Assembly (NCBI GenBank): GCA_014584465.1
Contig: JACTMU010000071.1
Span: 1 to 49,499 of the forward strand
Direction of reading: 5' to 3'
Length of the DNA: 49,499 nt
From: Pseudomonadota bacterium
GTDB taxonomy: Bacteria; Bdellovibrionota; Bdellovibrionia; Bdellovibrionales; JACTMU01
Positions 2,952 to 31,125 of the stretch are shown piece after piece. Below the pieces are notes generated by a model. That model was not told the origin of the DNA, searched no databases, and saw only the letters and a list, made by a program, of their open reading frames with translations. The position numbers were made by a program, and so were the translations under genes. Positions within the stretch are counted from its first letter, which is position 1; each line of letters starts with the position of its first letter.

Positions 2952-5449
2952 ATGTTTCATAAAATGAAAAAAAAACGTTCTTTCGAGATTGCACTCTCTA
3001 CAATATCCTCACTACTCCTTCTTTTAGTTTCCTATCAGAATTGCGGAGGATCACTCACCGCATTGAATTCCGCCGCCAGTACACACAGCTCTGTTTGCGA
3101 AGGACTGTTTGCGAAGGAAAAGATTGTTCTTCGGTCGGAGGCGGTGGTGACGAGACTCCTCAGCCCTCTGAAAACAATGATGAGGAAGAGGTGAATGATC
3201 CTAATCCAATCGTCGTAGAACCTCCTGAAGATGATAATGGTATAACACCACCTCCCGATGAAGACGAGATCCCTGTGGTGCCCCAACCTGACCCCCCTCC
3301 TAATAGTGACATTGAACCACCCTCTGAAAATCAATGGATCCAGGTAGCAAAAAGAACGAAGGCTCAGAAGACGGCGGGACTTTCAGGTGGTGAAGGGCAG
3401 CAAATGATCTTGGGAATTGCCTATGCGCCATCTGATCCAAATATTGCACTTTTTGTTACCGATACAAGTCAGGTTTGGAAGAGCATCGATGGAGGTGCAA
3501 GCTGGCAGAGAAAATCCAATGGCTTCGGGGCAACCGGCGGGACTTCTGTCGTTTTTGACCCAACCAATGCAGATGTTGCTTATGTATCAGGTATGAATGA
3601 GAATGGAGGTGGGTGGACACCGTTCCCGGATGTTGTACAGGGTATATTTAGAACTACAGATGGCGGGAACAACTGGACATTAGTAAAACGTGCAAATTTC
3701 CGTAGAGCTCCCCGTTCAGATGGTGTTCATATCGCTTTTTCTGGAAGCAATATCTATGCAACGCCCAGTGCACAAGGTGTTTTAAAATCAACGAACGGTG
3801 GAACTACGTGGAATTTTCTAACTACATCTGGCGGCGCGAAGATTTTGGATACCTTGAATCTTAATAATATAGCAGCTCATCCTACGGATGATACCATTTT
3901 ATATGTGTCTGCTTCTAATGGATTGTATAAGATTGTGGATCGTGGCGGCTCTGCGACTGTGACCAAGATAGGAACGGGTCTACCTTCGGGAGCTGTACAT
4001 CAGCTACAGATTGACCACAGTTCGCCAAGTACAATGTATGTTGCTGCCAATTCAAATGGTGTTTGGAAATCGACAAACGGTGGGACAAGTTTTACAAAAA
4101 TCCTATCTTCCCCCATAAAGAATACTAACACTGGCGATGCTAGGTTTATAGCAATGAGTCCAGTAAATTCGAGCAAACTCATAGTTACTTTCAGGCGTTT
4201 GTTTGGTAATTATATTTATCATACCAGCGATGGAGGTGCAAATTGGACACAGACAACCAATATGGATGAGTCCAATGCAGATGGGTGGATTGCGGGTTCT
4301 GTCTTTGGCTATACAAGAAATCAGTCTGGTGTTGATAATGATTTCTCGCCTGTTTGTTTTCATCCAACAAATCAAAATATCGCTTTGGCAATTGGATGGG
4401 GTAATCAAATTAAGAAAACTACGGATGGCGGCGTTACATGGAAATATTCCAGTACAAGCTATACAGGATCAGGCGTGGGTGGTCAGGAAAGCTCCAGTGC
4501 GATTGGGTGGGATTCCACTAATTATAATAGAGCGGTTTATTCCCAGGGCGATTGGGGGAGTCTGCTTACGGAGGATGACGAAGATACTTTCGCATTAAAA
4601 GCCACGGTTAGTCATAATGATCGGCACGCAACTGCGGCAGCCGCAATGTATAAGAATATTATTATTGAAGCAGTTGGAGCTACAAATGACGTCAGTACTA
4701 ATTCACAAGTAATAGCCATATCAAGGGACTCAGGGTCAAGTTGGGAGAAACTTGAAAGCGTATACGGGGCCTTTAAATTGATTTCTTTTCATCCTCAGGA
4801 CAATAATATTGTATACGCAGGGAAATACAAATTTTACGATATACAGACAGACAAAAATTATATAACTCTTGACAAACCTATTGCTGCTGTATTTAAGGGG
4901 AAAAGTGGCACTCAAGGGGATACAGTTTACTCGTACAGCGGGAGCACTATCTATAAATCGACTGATGCCGGAGTCTCATGGACAGCGCCATATCCCTCAT
5001 TAAACCTTCCCTCTGGGACTTCTATAAGACAGATTGCCATAAGTCCTGCAAATGAAAACCGTATTTATGCGGCAGTAGTGGGTAAAGGTATTTATATCAT
5101 CAACAACACTTCTGTCAATGGTGGCACAGTCGTATTGAAAAACGATGCGCACGGAATTACATTAGACCAGTTTGGAGAAATAAATACGAGTACGATCGCA
5201 ACAGATCCTAATAACGCGAATGTTGTTTATGCAGGCACAAGGGCCAACTGGAAGGGCATGACAAATGGTCTTTTTCGTTCGATAGACGGCGGCAAAACAT
5301 GGACTAACATAACTTATGATACTTTCGGCACCATGTTTGGAATCAAAAATATAACGGTAAGACCTGACAATAGCTACGTTTACATAAGTTCATTTGCCGG
5401 CTCGTGGAAATTGCCACCGCCGTCATCAACCTCCAACGTAGAAAAATAA
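2952..5449 (+). pseudogene. BNR/VPS10-type propeller lipoprotein, split by a 14-bp duplication
   Basis: Leader and body lie in different frames. ATG 2952 opens a lipoprotein signal almost identical to that of the gene at 279 (YQNC, Cys31) but stops at 3192-3194. The body, open from 3041 to 5449, lacks a signal of its own. The break is an exact tandem repeat of CTGTTTGCGAAGGA (3091-3104 and 3105-3118). Dropping one copy joins the two frames and restores the acidic linker seen in the paralog (QPSENNDEEEVND). The body has about nine Asp-box motifs such as KSTNGGTTW, RTTDGGNNW, HTSDGGANW and RSIDGGKTW, typical of sortilin/GH74-like propellers that bind or cleave glycans. The body looks intact, so it may be phase-variable rather than dead. 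Confidence 0.75.
3091..3118 (+). repeat. Perfect 14-bp tandem duplication causing a frameshift
   Basis: CTGTTTGCGAAGGA occurs twice with no gap. Fourteen is not a multiple of three, so the second copy shifts the downstream frame. The duplication falls just after the lipoprotein signal of the propeller gene. Confidence 0.95.
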
Positions 5450-5853
5450 AGTGGACTCAATGTCCGAGATATCCAATTCACACTTTCTGCTAACGCAGGC
5501 GCTCGGGAGAATGCACTCAGGGCGAGAGAACTATTCATTTAGTTTGATGGTCTTATGAAATAGCAGTCAATGTGTCATGCCTGACGACAATTTTCACTGA
5601 TTCGAGTTGAAGAAAAGAGTGCCAGCATTAAAAACGGTAAACCTTCTTCTTCAACTTATAAATAGGGGCTGTCCGGTAATTCCATTTTTGCCGATTTCTA
5701 TAAACTGGAGAATAAGCGGATCCCCGTGCTTCTCACTGTGTAACTCTCCTTGTCATGCGTGTATACAATCTCACCTGGCGGTGTCTTCGTCGATGGTCTT
5801 TAACTCCATAAGGTTTTGACAAAACAGTCACGACGGATGGAGACTCTCACATT
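5450..5853. other. Intergenic region with a solo MITE arm and a long-loop inverted repeat
   Basis: Contains the solo arm of the palindromic element at 5665. Upstream of it AGTTGAAGAA (about 5605) and TTCTTCAACT (about 5648) form a perfect inverted repeat with a loop of some 35 bases. No convincing gene is present. The sugar-cluster promoter presumably lies here, but no clear sigma70 pair was found. Confidence 0.4.
5665..5705. repeat. Solo arm of the MITE-like palindromic element
   Basis: Starts GGGGCTGTCCGGTAATTCC and continues ATTTTTGCCGATTTCTATAA, matching one arm of the complete copies at 27420 and 30115. It is preceded by TAAATA, which fits the TANNTA target pattern of the other copies. 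The core and second arm are missing. Confidence 0.8.
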
Positions 5854-6903
5854 ATGTCTATAGCAGTAATCACCGGATCGAGCGGCCTGATTGGAAGCGA
5901 ATCCGCCTCTTTCTTTAACCATCAGGGATTTGAAATCGTTGGAATCGACAATGATATGAGGCGCCTTTTTTTTGGAGATGATGCCTCCAACGGTCGCAAC
6001 CACGAGAGGCTGAGCAAAACTCTGAAATCCTATACCCACTATCCCGTTGACATTCGAGATGAACAATCCATTTTTAGGATCTTTGCCAAACATGGTAGCA
6101 ACATCTCTGCGGTCATCCATACTGCAGCTCAACCAAGCCACGACTGGGCTATGAAGGAACCCTTTACGGATTTCTCAATCAATGCATTGGGAACTCTCAT
6201 TCTACTGGAAGCCACACGTAAGTATTGCCAAGATGCCACTTTCATTTTCACCTCAAGCAACAAGGTCTATGGCGACTTTCCAAACCATCTGAAGTTCGTA
6301 GAGCGTGAAACCCGATGGGAACTTGATCCTGAGAACAGATGGGCAAAATGGGGTTTTGATGAACAGGTCCCCATCGATCAATCAAAGCACACTCTCTTTG
6401 GAGCAAGCAAGGTCTCTGCCGATGTCTTGGTTCAAGAGTATGGGCATACTTTTGGTATGAAAACCGTTGTCTTTCGAGGTGGTTGTCTCACCGGTCCTGC
6501 CCACTCAGGCGCTCTTCAACATGGATTCTTATCCTACCTGATTAAGTGTGCTCTCAATGAAGTTCCCTACCAGATTTTGGGATATAAGGGCAAACAGGTA
6601 CGCGATAATGTACATTCCTACGATCTTGCCAACGCTTTTTGGCAATTTCATCTCAATCCAAAATGTGGCGAAGTTTACAACATTGGTGGATCGAGGGCAA
6701 TCAACTGTTCCATTCTTGAAGCGATCACAATGATTCAAAATATCCTTAGGCGATCGATGATTTATTCACTTTCTGAGGATCATAGATCGGGAGATCATAT
6801 ATGGTGGGTGACCGATGTCAGTAAGTTTCAAAGAGACTATCCCAAATGGAAGTACAGATACGGCCTCAGCGAAATCATTCAAGAGATGATCGATCATCCT
6901 TAA
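5854..6903 (+). CDS. NAD-dependent epimerase, CDP-paratose/tyvelose 2-epimerase-like SDR
   Basis: Extended short-chain dehydrogenase (349 aa) likely to act on a nucleotide sugar for surface polysaccharide. The Rossmann motif TGSSGLIGS is at residues 7-15, TSSNKVYGD at 133-141, and GGCLTGPAHSG, GYKGKQVRDN and VYNIGG follow, the set seen in the CDP-paratose 2-epimerase group. The usual catalytic YxxxK reads FGASK (Phe182, Lys186); to my knowledge some members of this group share this, but it leaves the proton-transfer residue unclear. First gene of a tightly spaced sugar cluster; 19 bases separate it from the next gene. GGAG lies about 11 bases before the ATG. The natural sugar substrate cannot be read from sequence. 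Confidence 0.85.
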   Translation: MSIAVITGSSGLIGSESASFFNHQGFEIVGIDNDMRRLFFGDDASNGRNHERLSKTLKSYTHYPVDIRDEQSIFRIFAKHGSNISAVIHTAAQPSHDWAMKEPFTDFSINALGTLILLEATRKYCQDATFIFTSSNKVYGDFPNHLKFVERETRWELDPENRWAKWGFDEQVPIDQSKHTLFGASKVSADVLVQEYGHTFGMKTVVFRGGCLTGPAHSGALQHGFLSYLIKCALNEVPYQILGYKGKQVRDNVHSYDLANAFWQFHLNPKCGEVYNIGGSRAINCSILEAITMIQNILRRSMIYSLSEDHRSGDHIWWVTDVSKFQRDYPKWKYRYGLSEIIQEMIDHP

Positions 6904-6922
6904 TTCCAGCGAACCTCAAGCG

Positions 6923-9115
6923 ATGACTCACAAAACCACCAACCCACAGGGTATGACCAAAAGCGTTTCAAACTTCTTAAAGAACAGAGGTGATCTTATT
7001 TTTATCACCTCTATCTTCACCATTCTGTACTGGCTGCTTAAATCCCTTCACTCAGTGCCACATCTTGATGATTGGGCTTACATTCAAACTGTAGAACAAG
7101 TTTACCATACAGGCAAATGGAAAATCTCAAATTGGAGTTCAACCTCCTTGCTTTTCCAGATCGTTTGGGGCCTTACATTCACCAAGTTATTTGGCCTGTC
7201 CATCTTGAGTCTAAGAATGTCGACTCTCTGTCTCAACTTTTTAGGTGTTTGTGCGCTGTCGTCTCTTTTAAAGGGACTTAAGGTCAGCATCTTTTACAGA
7301 TGTTTGGCGATTCTCCTGCTTCTCTTTAATCCCATCTACTTTGATCTTTCGAACAGCTTTATGAGCGATGTGCAATATACATCTTTAAGCCTTCTGACCA
7401 TCTATTTCTATTTCAAAGGGATGAAAGAAGATCGCAGCCTCCATTTGGTTTTGGGATCTGTTTTTGCTTCTTGCTCCTTTTTAACGCGACAACTTGGCAT
7501 TTTCATCTTTCTTTCTGTGGCGTTCTACCTTTATCTCAATCGAAAAAAGTTCACAGTAGCACATGTAATTTTCGCGCTCCTTCTGCCAGCTGGAACACTT
7601 TTCTCATATGCTTATTGGTATGCAAATGGGGGTGCGACATGGCATCAAAAACAGTTGGCTATCAGCAACTCTTTATCTCAATTTGCTACTCCTCTTGCTT
7701 TTCTACCGGAATTGATCCTCCGGGCCTTCCAATTTTCCACGACTCTAGGCCTATTTCTGTTTCCTCTTCTTGCAATTCATGCAGTGTTTGGACAACCTCA
7801 AAAGAGAGAATTCATGATCTATTTGGCTTGGATCATGATCACTTTGCTCGCAATATCGTTGCAGATCATGATGGGCAAGAGTTCCGTTCTACCCATTCTA
7901 GATGGCCTATTGGCTCACGGAAACTCTGGTTCATTGTCCGGTGGCTTTTGGATTGCAATAACCCTATTGGGATACTTGGGAAATGTTTTGTTTGGATCGT
8001 TTTTAACCAAGCAGTATCTAATGGCTCGGCGCCGCTTCGACTTCTCATCCCAAACCACCATAATTGGTCTTTACCTTGCCGCAGTCTTTGCCTTTTCTCT
8101 ATTTCATTTTCACGTTTTTGATCGCTATCTAACTCCCCTATTGCCTTACCTGATGCTTTGGATTGCACCTTCCATCACAGACTTTTCTCCCGGGGTTCGG
8201 TTAGGGTCAATTTCTTCGATGAAAACATTCAAAGCTCTAAGTTATGCAGCCCTGATGCTTCTATTCTTCCTCATTGGATTGATCATTGTTCAAAATTGTT
8301 CATGGTTTGAATCGAAGGTCACACGGGCGCTTGAACCCTTAGACGTACATGAAGATGGAGGTTTCGCCTACATAACATCCACGAGCGATCTCCCTAATCC
8401 AAACGATGAAGGGCTCATTCGGAGTAAGATGCTTCTCTTTGAAGGCAACTTTCAACTTGGACCCATTTCCCATATCCACAAGGAGATTCGAATGCTAGGA
8501 TCAGGACGATATTCCCATTGGAAGCAAGACTTGTGGTTTAGCACCTCGGACAACACCGATCCCCGAACAAACGGAAGGTCCTACCGAATAGAATACACCC
8601 ATCCTCCGTACACACTTTGGGTGCTGATGGGCCTTATCTGCAGTGCTTCACTCCTCTTTCTTTTTCAATCCATTATGTGCCTCTTTAGCTTTTCACGAAT
8701 GGGTATCGTGATTTTCATGCTCCCCTATTTGGGATTTCTATCTATCTATTCGATCTCAAACACATCTTCCTTTATGCAAAGAGGTGACTTAAGATGGCAT
8801 GCAGCGCAATCCTTGATCGAAAATGGTGTTCAACCCAAGGAACTCTATGTGGATTTGAGCTGGAATGGCTATCACCTGTATGAGGAGACTTTGAACTATT
8901 TGATGGAGAACACTTCAGAACCTATAGGCCAGATGACTCCTTTTCAATTGATGAAAAGCAGAGCTCAATTCTCTTTTGAAAAGGAAGATCGTTTTACTCT
9001 TTTATCACAAGAAAAATTTCCGACTTCTTGGTCCTATAGATTACTTCATTTTTTGTTTGGAAAACGAAATTTAGACTATGAATTTCTAACTGTGGATCTA
9101 TATCAAAGGGATTAG
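6923..9115 (+). CDS. Polytopic membrane glycosyltransferase, GT39/ArnT-like (GT-C)
   Basis: An inner-membrane protein of 730 aa with roughly a dozen hydrophobic segments and a soluble C-terminal part. The first transmembrane helix is followed by HLDDWAY, the acidic loop motif of GT-C enzymes that move sugars from polyprenyl phosphate carriers. Further segments (FNPIYFDLSNSFMSDV, FLTRQLGIFIFLS) match the PMT_2/ArnT layout. It lies between two nucleotide-sugar epimerases and before a polyprenyl-phosphate type GT2 enzyme, so a role in decorating lipid or surface glycan is likely. Its acceptor is unknown. The stop is adjacent to the next start. Confidence 0.75.
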   Translation: MTHKTTNPQGMTKSVSNFLKNRGDLIFITSIFTILYWLLKSLHSVPHLDDWAYIQTVEQVYHTGKWKISNWSSTSLLFQIVWGLTFTKLFGLSILSLRMSTLCLNFLGVCALSSLLKGLKVSIFYRCLAILLLLFNPIYFDLSNSFMSDVQYTSLSLLTIYFYFKGMKEDRSLHLVLGSVFASCSFLTRQLGIFIFLSVAFYLYLNRKKFTVAHVIFALLLPAGTLFSYAYWYANGGATWHQKQLAISNSLSQFATPLAFLPELILRAFQFSTTLGLFLFPLLAIHAVFGQPQKREFMIYLAWIMITLLAISLQIMMGKSSVLPILDGLLAHGNSGSLSGGFWIAITLLGYLGNVLFGSFLTKQYLMARRRFDFSSQTTIIGLYLAAVFAFSLFHFHVFDRYLTPLLPYLMLWIAPSITDFSPGVRLGSISSMKTFKALSYAALMLLFFLIGLIIVQNCSWFESKVTRALEPLDVHEDGGFAYITSTSDLPNPNDEGLIRSKMLLFEGNFQLGPISHIHKEIRMLGSGRYSHWKQDLWFSTSDNTDPRTNGRSYRIEYTHPPYTLWVLMGLICSASLLFLFQSIMCLFSFSRMGIVIFMLPYLGFLSIYSISNTSSFMQRGDLRWHAAQSLIENGVQPKELYVDLSWNGYHLYEETLNYLMENTSEPIGQMTPFQLMKSRAQFSFEKEDRFTLLSQEKFPTSWSYRLLHFLFGKRNLDYEFLTVDLYQRD

Positions 9116-9121
9116 GTGGAT

Positions 9122-10189
9122 ATGAAGATTTTAGTCACTGGCGGTGCTGGCTTTGTTGGCTCATCTTTAGCCATGGAGTTTAGAAAATGCTTTCCAAAAG
9201 CAAAGGTTGTTGTTTTTGACAATCTTCGACGAAGAGGAGCCGAACTGAATCTGAATCGCTTCAAACGATCTGAAATAGAGTTTGTCCATGGAGACATTCG
9301 ATGTTCAGAGGATTTAACAGGTTTGGGGGACAAATTTGACTTTTTCATTGATGCTTCCGCAAGCTCATCGGTGCATGACGGTCAAGATGGTCACCTCTCC
9401 TATTTGGTCCAGACCAATCTTCTTGGAACCATGAACTGTTTGGAGTTTGCAAGGAGGTACTGCGGAGGATTTGTCTTTCTTTCTTCTTCAAGAGTCTATT
9501 CTATCCCTGAGTTGTTGAAGATTCCTCTTCAAGAGTCAAAGGGCCGATTTGAAATCGACACAGACAAAGAGCTCCCCCATGGGCTTTCTGGAAGTGGAAT
9601 CAACGAAACATTCAGCACCGCGGAGTTTCGTTCCTTGTACGGGGCAACAAAGCTGGCCTCTGAACTTCTGATTGAGGAATATGTCCATTCCTTTGGTTTA
9701 AATGCGATCATTGATCGTTGCAGCGTCATTGCAGGACCAGGACAGTGGGGCACCTCCGAGCAGGGAGTTTTCACACTTTGGGTTGCGAATCATTTCTTTC
9801 AGAAATCGTTGTCCTATACTGGATTTGGTGGATTTGGGAAGCAGGTCAGAGACCTGTTACATCCATCAGATCTTTTCGCTTTGATTTTGCAACAGTTGGA
9901 CAGCGTGGACCGATACAGAGGAAAACTCTACAATGTGGGAGGCGGAATGGAAAATTCTACATCACTCAAAGAGTTGACTGAGATTTGCAAGAAAGTCACA
10001 GGCAATTCTGTTCAAATCGATCCTATTCCTAACACCACAAAGGTGGACATCCCCTTTTTTGTATCCGACAGCGCTCAAGTAAGGAGTGATTTCTCGTGGA
10101 AACCTGAGAGAACTGTTTTTCAAATTGTTGAGGACATTTGGACTTGGCTAAAGCATGAACGTGAAACTGTTAAGGATATTTTCTTATGA
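9122..10189 (+). CDS. NAD-dependent nucleotide-sugar epimerase/dehydratase (SDR)
   Basis: Extended SDR (355 aa) for nucleotide-sugar interconversion. GGAGFVGS (residues 7-14) binds NAD; SSSRVY and YGATK (Tyr173, Lys177) form the catalytic set. IAGPGQWG, QGVFTLWV and GKQVRDLLH resemble the CDP-paratose 2-epimerase group, so this is a distant partner of the gene at 5854 but with the canonical tyrosine. ATG 9122 is preferred over GTG 9116 because AGGTGG lies just upstream and MKILVTGG is the normal N-terminus. It ends with an ATGA overlap onto the GT2 gene, so the two are translationally coupled. Confidence 0.85.
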   Translation: MKILVTGGAGFVGSSLAMEFRKCFPKAKVVVFDNLRRRGAELNLNRFKRSEIEFVHGDIRCSEDLTGLGDKFDFFIDASASSSVHDGQDGHLSYLVQTNLLGTMNCLEFARRYCGGFVFLSSSRVYSIPELLKIPLQESKGRFEIDTDKELPHGLSGSGINETFSTAEFRSLYGATKLASELLIEEYVHSFGLNAIIDRCSVIAGPGQWGTSEQGVFTLWVANHFFQKSLSYTGFGGFGKQVRDLLHPSDLFALILQQLDSVDRYRGKLYNVGGGMENSTSLKELTEICKKVTGNSVQIDPIPNTTKVDIPFFVSDSAQVRSDFSWKPERTVFQIVEDIWTWLKHERETVKDIFL

Positions 10190-10917
10190 AGCTGTCGGTG
10201 GTGATACCTGTTCATAATGAGGAGGGATGCATCCGAGAAACGGTGACGGATCTTCATGATGCACTGAAAAGCAGTGACATCAACCATGAGATCTTGGTGG
10301 TCAATGACCACAGCGACGATCAGACCCGACTTGTCCTTTCATCCCTCCAAAGGGATGTGCCAACACTCCGATTCATCGACAACGACTCACCTTGCGGATT
10401 CGGCCTAGCTGTTCGTAAAGGGTTGGATGCCTTCACTGGTGATGCCGTATGCATCATGATGGGAGATGGATCTGACTTTCCAGAGGATCTCATAACGTTT
10501 TTTAGAGCTTTAGAACGAGGTTATGACTGCGTTTTTGGCTCCAGATTTAAACGAGAATCAAATCTGATCGATTATCCTTGGAAAAAGCTCATTTTGAATC
10601 GCATGACCAACATTTTGATCTCGCTCTTGTTTCAGATCAACTACTTCGATGTCACAAATGCTTTCAAAATGTACCGTGCACATGTGATCCACGCAGTGAG
10701 ACCATTTTCGAGCCGCAACTTCAGTTTGACGGCTGAGCTTCCATTGAAATCGATCATTCGAGGATACTCCTACGTTGTGGTCCCAAACAGTTGGAGAAAT
10801 CGAAGAACAGGGCAATCGAAACTTCGAATTCTTGAACAGGGGACCTCCTACCTTCACGTCATCATTGAGTGCTTTCTGCAGAGGCTCTTTGCCCGAAAAG
10901 AGAGATTCGGGACCTAA
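10186..10917 (+). CDS. GT2 family glycosyltransferase, dolichol-phosphate-mannose-synthase-like
   Basis: GT-A fold transferase of 243 aa. It begins KLSVVIPVHNEEGCIRETV, has MMGDGSDFPED as the metal/nucleotide-binding acidic motif and GSRFKRES after it, as in DPM1-like enzymes that load a sugar onto polyprenyl phosphate. No C-terminal membrane helices are obvious. Its product would suit the GT-C transferase encoded two genes upstream. It overlaps the epimerase stop by four bases (ATGA) and is the last gene of the sugar cluster. Confidence 0.85.
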   Translation: MKLSVVIPVHNEEGCIRETVTDLHDALKSSDINHEILVVNDHSDDQTRLVLSSLQRDVPTLRFIDNDSPCGFGLAVRKGLDAFTGDAVCIMMGDGSDFPEDLITFFRALERGYDCVFGSRFKRESNLIDYPWKKLILNRMTNILISLLFQINYFDVTNAFKMYRAHVIHAVRPFSSRNFSLTAELPLKSIIRGYSYVVVPNSWRNRRTGQSKLRILEQGTSYLHVIIECFLQRLFARKERFGT

Positions 10918-22119: not shown

Positions 22120-22483
22120 ATGTTTCAATCATCTGTCGCGGAGTTGGACGTATTTCGAATTCTTCATGAGGACTCCATAGAGGATCCTCGAAAGGAAGTT
22201 ATGGGAAAACATATCCTTCGTCCGCGATTTCAAGTGCAATTTCGATGCAATAAAAGCGATCCTAACGATCAATGCCTCTTCCCCTTGGCCATCATCAACG
22301 TTGACTTTGACCAAGACCCGCATCAAACTGCCTCGACAAGATCGTTACACGACCTGCAGCAAGGCTGTTGTTGGCCCTCCAGATGTGAACCTGGTCAACT
22401 ATTGTAAGGGCGATCTTATGCCTGATGGCCGCACGTTCAAACAATATTGTTTAGAGGATCGAAACCTCGGATCATTTAGTTAG
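22120..22483 (+). pseudogene. Frameshifted, repeat-truncated hypothetical gene
   Basis: ATG 22120 follows a TAGGAG ribosome-binding site and opens a frame with DSIEDPRKEVMGKHILRPRF and CLFPLAIINVDFDQDP. Near 22310 the protein-like reading passes to another frame (LPRQDRYTTCSKAVVGPPDV, then LMPDGRTFKQYCLEDRNLG), which stops at TAG 22481-22483. That stop is formed by the junction with the palindromic element. The pattern suggests a small cysteine-containing protein broken by a frameshift and truncated by the repeat. Family not recognised. Confidence 0.35.
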
Positions 22484-22574
22484 GGGCTGTCCGGTAATTC
22501 GCTTTTTGATCGATTTTGATAAGTTTTTCTTATACCGAGGCGGGCCGACGAAGGGCTAGCCAGAGGCGCTAACT
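22483..22574. repeat. Left arm and core of the MITE-like element (right arm missing)
   Basis: Begins GGGGCTGTCCGGTAATTCGC and is identical by eye to the copy at 30115 through the left arm and the core to GAGGCGCTAACT, where similarity stops. Preceded by TAGTTA, fitting TANNTA. The missing right arm implies a deletion after insertion. Confidence 0.9.
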
Positions 22575-29340: not shown

Positions 29341-30111
29341 ATGTTTGCAAAGATCGATGAAAAAGTGATTACTAGAGCCATCGTCTCAACCTATTCTAAA
29401 CAACTCGAAGAGGCTGCAGACTCAGATGTTTTGATTGGCGGCGCAGGGCCATCAGGCCTGATTGCGGCTGCTCAACTTTCGAGCTTGGGACACAAAGTTG
29501 TCGTCATTGAACGCAACAATTATCTAGGCGGTGGAATGTGGATCGGTGGATATTTGATGAACAAAATCACTGTTCGTGCTCCCGCAAATCGAATCTTAAA
29601 GAGTCTTGAGATTCCTTATGAGGAGTACTGCAAAGACCTCTATGTGGCTGATGCCCCCTTCTTTGCTTCGCGCCTCATCCATGCCGCCTGCCAAGCTGGC
29701 GTCACCTTTTTAAACATGACCATCATTGAAGATGTCATTGTCAAAAATGGGGAGGTGGCGGGACTTGTGATCAATTGGACTCCTGTTACGACACTGCCAA
29801 GATCCATCTCTTGTCTTGATCCGATCCTCCTCGAATCCAAAGTGGTCATTGATGCCACTGGACACGATGCCATCATTGCAAAGCACTTAGAGAGGCGAAA
29901 GTTGGTCACAATGAGGGGAATGGGAACACTCAATGTCGAGATGTCTGAAGAGGCTGTCGTTGAAAACACTCAATCCATCTTCCCACGTCTGTTTCTCTGT
30001 GGGATGGCGGTCTCTGAAGCTTATGGAGTGCCACGCATGGGTCCCACCTTTGGATCTATGTTGATCTCGGGCCAGCGGGTTGCCGAACAAGTTCACCAAT
30101 TTTTGCGTTAA
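29341..30111 (+). CDS. thi4: Thiamine thiazole synthase, Thi4 family, with active-site-type cysteine
   Basis: FAD/NAD-fold enzyme (256 aa) that makes the ADP-thiazole half of thiamine from NAD and glycine. [17 protein letters not shown] is the dinucleotide motif; [27 protein letters not shown] and [11 protein letters not shown] follow. [15 protein letters not shown] aligns by eye with the QSCMDP motif of yeast and plant Thi4, so Cys158 stands where those enzymes give up their own sulfur. Many prokaryotic Thi4 proteins have His there and use free sulfide. ATG 29341 has AAGGAG upstream. The stop codon is inside the target duplication of the repeat that follows. Cotranscribed with thiC, which fits the riboswitch. 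Confidence 0.92.
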
Positions 30112-30114
30112 CTA

Positions 30115-30259
30115 GGGGCTGTCCGGTAATTCGCTTTTTGATCGATTTTGATAAGTTTTTCTTATACCGAGGCGGGCCGACGAAGGGCTAGCCAGAGGCG
30201 CTAACTCGTATAAGGAAAACTTATAGAAATCGGCAAAAATGGAATTACCGGACAGCCCC
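30115..30259 (+). mobile_element. Complete MITE-like palindromic element with TAACTA duplication
   Basis: 145 bp between GGGGCTGTCCGGTAATTC and GGAATTACCGGACAGCCCC. The arms extend inward some 55 bases each with few mismatches (ending at CTTATACC and GTATAAGG), and the core contains GGCGGGCCGACGAAGGGCTA. TAACTA repeats at 30109-30114 and 30260-30265. Before insertion this TAACTA would have carried the stop codons of both convergent genes, thi4 and the ATP-grasp gene. The element leaves both proteins unchanged and its hairpin could end transcription from both sides. Confidence 0.95.
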
Positions 30260-31125
30260 TAACTAGTGCCCGCGACCATTTCGGAAAAGGTTCTTACAAA
30301 ATGCTCCACGGATTCGGGAGCATAAGTAAGAAAAAGAGAGGGTTCGATCAGTTCAAGTTCCATCAACACAAAACCCCCTCGATCCTGGGGCACAACATCG
30401 ACACGTGCATAGAGCAAATCCTCTTCAACACAATTGAGAATTTCCTGAGCCATTTCAATTTGCCTTTGACTTGGAACACATCTTGAAATCATAGCGCCAT
30501 ACTCCGCTTGAGTTCGAAAATCCATCTCCGAAGGCTTCTTTAGTACGGCATGGCTGAATCTCTTACCAAAGAAGATCATCGACATTTCACCTGACCTCTT
30601 GATTTCACCAATAAATGGTTGGACAAAGTAGTCACTCTGAAGATTCCTCGGCAACTTCGCGTACGACGCAGGATCATTTCGATGGACCAAGACAATGTGA
30701 CTTGACTTGGCCCCCACAATGGGCTTCACCACCAGGGTCTCGGTCTCAAAACTCTCAAAGAACTCTGAAATCTGCTCACGAGAAACCTTGTACTGCGTTG
30801 GTACTACTGAAATCCCCTGTGAGGCCAAATCACCAAGATAGGTCTTGCGACCGTTCCACCTCACAATCTTTGGTGGATTGAAAAGCTTGCATCCGGACTG
30901 TTCAATCTGATCGGTCATCTGCAAGAAGTCCTCAATGTGGGTTGTGTAGTCCCATGTTGAACGCAGAACTGCGCAATGGTGACTTTTCCAATCAACATCA
31001 ACGGCGTTCCACGGAACCTCCTTCACCTGCCATCCGGCCTTTCCCATCGGCTCAAATAGGAGATGATCGTCAGGAATCGCATGACCCAACTGCTTACACG
31101 TTAGAAAGAGACAACTTCTCATCAT
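30259..31125 (-). CDS. ATP-grasp enzyme, RimK/DcsG-like
   Basis: Protein of 288 aa predicted to ligate a carboxylate and an amine using ATP. VLRSTWDYTTHIEDF marks the DcsG-like subgroup; TLVVKPIVGAKSSHIVLV holds the ATP-binding lysine, FVQPFIGEIKRSGEMSMIFF the grasp strand pair, and LYARVDVVPQDRGGFVLMEL then ELIEPSLFL the metal-binding glutamates. Substrate is unknown; there is no amino-acid biosynthetic partner next to it. Its stop codon is partly made by the inserted palindromic element. Lies 23 bases after the AI-2E permease gene on the same strand. Confidence 0.82.
   Translation of the reverse strand: MMRSCLFLTCKQLGHAIPDDHLLFEPMGKAGWQVKEVPWNAVDVDWKSHHCAVLRSTWDYTTHIEDFLQMTDQIEQSGCKLFNPPKIVRWNGRKTYLGDLASQGISVVPTQYKVSREQISEFFESFETETLVVKPIVGAKSSHIVLVHRNDPASYAKLPRNLQSDYFVQPFIGEIKRSGEMSMIFFGKRFSHAVLKKPSEMDFRTQAEYGAMISRCVPSQRQIEMAQEILNCVEEDLLYARVDVVPQDRGGFVLMELELIEPSLFLTYAPESVEHFVRTFSEMVAGTS

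Follow-up and report, generated by a model that had tools for sequence, protein, structure and literature searches.

A 14-bp tandem duplication parts leader from body in a GH74-like surface protein gene, probably a recent loss within an expanded lineage-specific family

The genome considered here comprises 3.75 Mb in 120 contigs and is 99.7% complete. The window, by which we mean the whole stretch of 49,499 nucleotides that was analysed, carries two genes with a common leader, at 279–1988 and 2952–5449. The first is intact, and in the second the leader and the body lie in different reading frames. The features at the locus, all on the + strand, are as follows.

279–1988, +: intact paralog, with the common leader and linker holding one copy of the unit and a DUF6298/apiosidase-like body
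2619–2951, +: upstream region common, by alignment, to the sibling leaders C112, C79 and C60a (nearer part only), presumably with the promoter
2952–3194, +: leader ORF of 80 aa by translation, with a signal peptide bearing the YQN-C motif, an out-of-frame tail and TGA at 3192–3194; 15 further leader copies lie in the genome, and [FYW]QNC leaders occur in order-mates
2967–2975, +: A9 tract directly following the second ATG of the leader frame
3091–3104, +: first copy of CTGTTTGCGAAGGA
3105–3118, +: second copy of CTGTTTGCGAAGGA, identical and directly adjacent
3119–3322, +: linker, acidic and rich in Pro, that can be read in the body frame
3191–3193, +: body-frame GTG that overlaps the stop of the leader frame (GTGA) and is preceded by GAGGAAGAG; a candidate site of re-initiation
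3323–5449, +: body of 708 aa, a GH74-like double beta-propeller, open and constrained but lacking a signal in its own frame (Pfam, profile, AlphaFold2 fold and omega)

Two side observations concern the neighbourhood. The intergenic stretch 2041–2280 resembles a decayed membrane-protein gene, readable in fragments but without a full ORF. Downstream, at 5854–10917, lie genes for sugar epimerases, a mannosyltransferase-like protein and a glycosyltransferase, so that polysaccharide synthesis genes adjoin genes for polysaccharide-active surface proteins.

The preliminary description of this locus reported a perfect 14-bp tandem duplication that coincides with a break between signal and body, and both observations hold. 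The two directly adjacent copies of CTGTTTGCGAAGGA at 3091–3118 are identical; the array, at exactly 2.0 copies, is the longest perfect two-copy repeat of the window, and its unit boundaries show no microhomology. Because 10 shuffles of the window yielded no perfect tandem repeat of period 10–40, the repeat is a genuine mutation and no product of chance. The leader starting at ATG 2952 translates as MFHKMKKKRSFEIALSTISSLLLLLVSYQNCGGSLTALNSAASTHSSVCEG and continues as an out-of-frame tail to the TGA at 3192, 80 aa in all. The body frame, in another register, stays open across 2963–5446, ends in a stop at 5447–5449 and has no signal of its own. Fourteen is not a multiple of three and the two registers differ accordingly, so a change of one unit shifts the frame. 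For the analyses below, leader and body of the gene at 2952–5449 were treated apart, each as it stands.

The body contains Sortilin-Vps10/BNR matches in Pfam, and a profile built from eight relatives in the same genome matched GH74 xyloglucanases in the PDB (2cn3, E 7e-28). An AlphaFold2 model of the body (mean pLDDT 77.8, pTM 0.78) had GH74 enzymes as all of its 24 best PDB fold matches. Fold and profile searches thus point to tandem seven-bladed propellers as in GH74, an assignment made for the domain as a whole. The resemblance to the GH74 xyloglucanases (2cn3, 6p2n, 6mgj, 7kn8) is one of profile and fold, whereas identity is only about 17–18% and TM about 0.6–0.67, and the profile alignments do not cover both sites of the two GH74 catalytic Asp residues in register. 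Its nearest counterpart outside the genome is the propeller domain of a protein from Candidatus Brocadia pituitae (L081, a 1573-aa ORF), which matches the whole body at 42–44% identity but has another N-terminal part, extra C-terminal sequence and no common leader.

The gene had been described as encoding a lipoprotein. Its leader has an n-region, a hydrophobic core and a conserved Cys, but positions −3 to −1 read Y-Q-N, which is not a canonical lipobox. Leaders of the form [FYW]QNC recur across order-mates, and because of this recurrence a lipoprotein remains the likely reading of the gene despite the unusual motif.

The match to the leader and linker of the gene at 279, also reported earlier, is real and reaches further: 16 leader copies are present in the genome, the two window genes included, with the others on contigs C112, C47, C60, C78, C25, C57, C118, C93, C102, C109, C6, C5 and C79. 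They have in common a module of upstream region, signal with YQN-C, SLCEGEC motif and acidic linker, and they differ in their bodies. Behind this one module lie at least four unrelated carbohydrate-active body types. Most are GH74-like double propellers (propeller matches occur at about 20 places in the genome); the others are the DUF6298/apiosidase-like body of gene 279, laminin-G plus alginate lyase in C47, and the DUF4962/heparinase-like bodies of C5 and C60a. Upstream regions fall into a few types. For the broken gene, alignments of the upstream region with the adjoining leader show 91% identity to C112 (486 bp), 95% to C79 (416 bp) and 86% to C60a (351 bp), and in the 160 bp directly upstream of the start codon identity among the sibling leaders aligned is 89–94%. 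The C60a leader is a mosaic: upstream and as far as +52 it is 92–96% identical to the leader of gene 2952, and past +52 it is 89% identical to C5 and leads into its own body type, with a breakpoint inside the signal peptide. The C60a and C5 proteins are 58% identical.

No close relative was found among same-order genomes; of those searched with the body only G010 matched, weakly, and leader matches in the order were remote. Scans of the genome and viral collections likewise returned remote bodies only, the best at 42% in Brocadia. By sequence, this is a lineage-specific, expanded family of predicted surface-anchored, carbohydrate-active proteins. An attempt to use contig-end overlaps for joining orphan bodies to cut leaders gave only common stretches of 97–99 bp (C60/C4, C12/C99) and no useful joins.

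At the site of the duplication, 14 of the 14 other leaders readable there have a single copy, and the ancestral state was thus one copy and an intact gene. In agreement with the earlier claim that about 2.3 kb show no other damage, the body frame holds 0 stops and the body aligns over its full length to intact paralogs. Pairwise omega between the body and its nearest paralogs is 0.17–0.19, compared with about 0.18–0.22 for intact paralog pairs, values obtained with dS near saturation. Lineage-specific changes by codon position number 40/25/68 in the body, 37/32/43 in intact C57 and 71/50/93 in intact C25, so the body is no more relaxed than either. Single-base changes in the body would produce a stop in 3.9% of cases, and the absence of stops limits neutral divergence since the break to at most about 3.6% (95%). 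Since dS to the nearest paralog is about 1, the break occupies a small, late part of the history of the lineage. Lack of stops, normal constraint and lack of relaxation together mark it as young, and the undecayed body is consistent with a very young break. As in a pseudogene, the ORF is disrupted relative to intact relatives, but further decay and relaxed constraint are absent.

Several siblings are damaged in other ways. C78 has a nonsense codon where its body begins, the rest being readable; C4 is 5′-truncated and frameshifted, C6 lacks the YQNC Cys in its leader, C79 has A10 where other leaders have A9, though at a contig end, and C72, C12 and C99 are 3′ fragments. C102, which has a TTG start, carries its own perfect 14-bp tandem duplication, AGAAAACGATCTTT, in the leader (L055:2034–2061), and its frame is kept by a nearby 5-bp deletion relative to its siblings. 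Because this deletion offsets the 14-bp duplication, C102 did not keep its frame by losing a copy. The sibling lesions are heterogeneous, and slippage could not undo most of them, a pattern that marks birth-and-death turnover and not a common switch. Two further features of siblings were seen in passing. The C102 tail has matches in short stretches scattered through the rest of the genome, and its truncation may accordingly be real or an assembly junction; in the C5 linker (L020:4083–4203) a 33-bp unit, which keeps the frame and encodes an Asp/His-rich stretch, is present in 3.7 copies.

How common such duplications are was estimated from 793 kb of sampled stretches of the genome, for perfect repeats of period 10–60. 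About 11 distinct loci were found, the period-32 and period-59 entries at L240 being parts of one 27-bp array, and every one that lies in a long ORF preserves the reading frame. Across about 0.94 Mb of sampled genome, the repeat at 3091–3118 is the only one to break the frame within a long intact ORF. Relatives yielded 0 such repeats in a sample of 400 kb and 2 in each of two samples of 200 kb. The family genes together span about 30 kb and hold five perfect short tandem duplications against 0.42 expected (P about 8e-5; about 9e-4 without the index case), a comparison that is post hoc, to which low-complexity linkers contribute and in which two of the five cases lie in a pseudogene. The five comprise the duplication of gene 2952, one of 14 bp in C102, one of 33 bp in C5 that keeps the frame, and two that lie in C4, the pseudogene. 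Family genes thus seem enriched for short tandem duplications, a hint that such events arise in the leader/linker, or are tolerated there, more than is usual.

The gene at 2952–5449 is probably a recently inactivated member of this expanded, lineage-specific, surface carbohydrate-active family, an ordinary loss that may be revertible at low frequency. Identical copies, an undamaged and constrained body, intact single-copy paralogs and independent sibling lesions all support recent inactivation. A spontaneous tandem duplication of 14 bp, placed where leader and linker meet, put the body out of frame. The product would then be only an 80-aa stub with an export signal, and re-initiation at GTG 3191 would give at most an unexported body. 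With the copies perfect and adjacent, rare replication slippage could restore the frame, by analogy with pneumococcal capsule genes; gene conversion from intact sibling leaders may offer another route. Loss of one of about 16 paralogs is likely to be buffered, and the family as a whole turns over through duplication, leader exchange and loss. Hairpin-provoked slippage is unconvincing as a trigger: sibling 279 shows a perfect hairpin of 7 bp at this position (z −1.96), but the version in gene 2952 is weak (z +0.56).

The family-wide enrichment for short tandem duplications and the second 14-bp event in C102 hint at something beyond pure ordinariness. In a broader interpretation, which we regard as unlikely, the leader/linker is a mutation-prone contingency region in which tandem duplications, the A9/A10 tract and leader exchange between the roughly 16 copies turn single carbohydrate-active surface proteins on and off and so yield a shuffled repertoire. 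The A9 tract recurs in C112, C60a and C93, and C79 has an out-of-frame A10 at its contig end. As a slippage tract A9/A10 is more classical than the 14-bp unit, and the C79 contig (L056 3′ end) stops there.

A narrower proposal is phase variation at the duplication itself, with slipped-strand mispairing taking the 14-bp unit from one copy to two and back and so turning surface display on and off in the population. The preliminary description offered this alongside very recent inactivation. It would suit a unit length that is not a multiple of three, a surface protein, an intact and constrained body and a family enriched for short tandem duplications, and it has a precedent: in pneumococcal cap3A, cap8E and tts, phase variation through spontaneous tandem duplications was reported from experiment (Waite et al. 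2001, 2003, as cited in PMC4022640). There too a short perfect two-copy duplication within an ORF shifts the frame, abolishes a surface structure and is revertible in principle, but the pneumococcal evidence is experimental, whereas gene 2952 is known from sequence and is one of about 16 paralogs. The authors of PMC4022640 expect insertions of up to 9 bp to revert at about 1e-5 at most, a rate that would be slow for a dedicated switch. Simple-sequence-repeat phase variation in Neisseria and Campylobacter (PMC5084427, PMC6321876) likewise depends on a frame-altering repeat unit in a surface-protein gene, but those tracts are hypermutable homopolymers or many short units, in contrast to two long units in a single paralog. 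Thus, as in contingency genes, each unit shifts the frame of a surface gene, but a hypermutable tract is lacking, and in place of a conserved repeat with varying copy number 14/14 comparable paralogs have one copy and 0/14 the doubling. The siblings, moreover, were broken by a nonsense codon, truncation and frameshift, none of which slippage would undo. With two copies only, no flanking microhomology, restriction to one paralog and different sibling lesions, a dedicated on/off switch at 3091–3118 is not supported, and toggling is quite improbable. Chance reversion by loss of one copy is physically plausible on the pneumococcal analogy; nothing shows frame restoration here to be either frequent or selected.

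The true sequence might instead have one copy, the second being an artefact of assembly or sequencing. With 120 contigs the assembly is fragmented, many family members lie at contig ends, and common stretches of about 97–99 bp occur at the breaks. The locus, however, is 3 kb inside a 49-kb contig, and its 28-bp array is far below the ~99 bp of the contig breaks and should resolve in single reads. No paralog contains the doubled sequence, so a chimera would have no source, and the absence elsewhere in 793 kb of frame-breaking duplications in long ORFs shows that artefacts of this sort are not general. An artefact is very unlikely.

Recoding, in which a −1 ribosomal frameshift or transcriptional slippage joins the frames and the gene is still expressed, has even less in its favour and is highly improbable. 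A −1 shift does lead from the leader to the body frame, and both are open over 2963–3191. However, no canonical X XXY YYZ heptamer lies between the signal and 3191 (only G GAA AAG at 3116), the sole A7 heptamer (2969) precedes the hydrophobic core so that slippage there would lose the signal, the stretch 3080–3145 has no notable structure (DNA folding parameters, z +0.56), and intact paralogs use no frame change.

Least credible of all is a 14-bp target-site duplication left after excision of a mobile element, which would fit exact copies without microhomology, the second 14-bp event in C102 and the mobile-element activity evident from a repeat of ~100–150 bp at no fewer than 40 genome places, but for which no element remnant lies between the copies, no Ku end-joining gene was found and a spontaneous duplication requires no element. 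Ku-dependent end joining was set aside as an origin of the duplication for the same lack of Ku. The mobile-element-like repeat, TAGGGGCTGTCCGGTAATTC... with inverted ends (~100–150 bp), occurs in the window at 22481–22574 and 30109–30260 and sometimes at contig ends, and a partial copy follows the propeller gene at about 5664–5690.

Under the preferred reading, inactivation by a recent duplication, the locus clearly exemplifies early gene loss in an expanding surface-protein family, seen before the body has decayed. Should copy number prove polymorphic, duplication-mediated phase variation would be extended beyond the pneumococcal capsule, to surface proteins that act on polysaccharides in an unrelated lineage. 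Of more lasting interest is the family, in which a single upstream/leader module precedes at least four unrelated carbohydrate-active bodies and leaders are mosaic.
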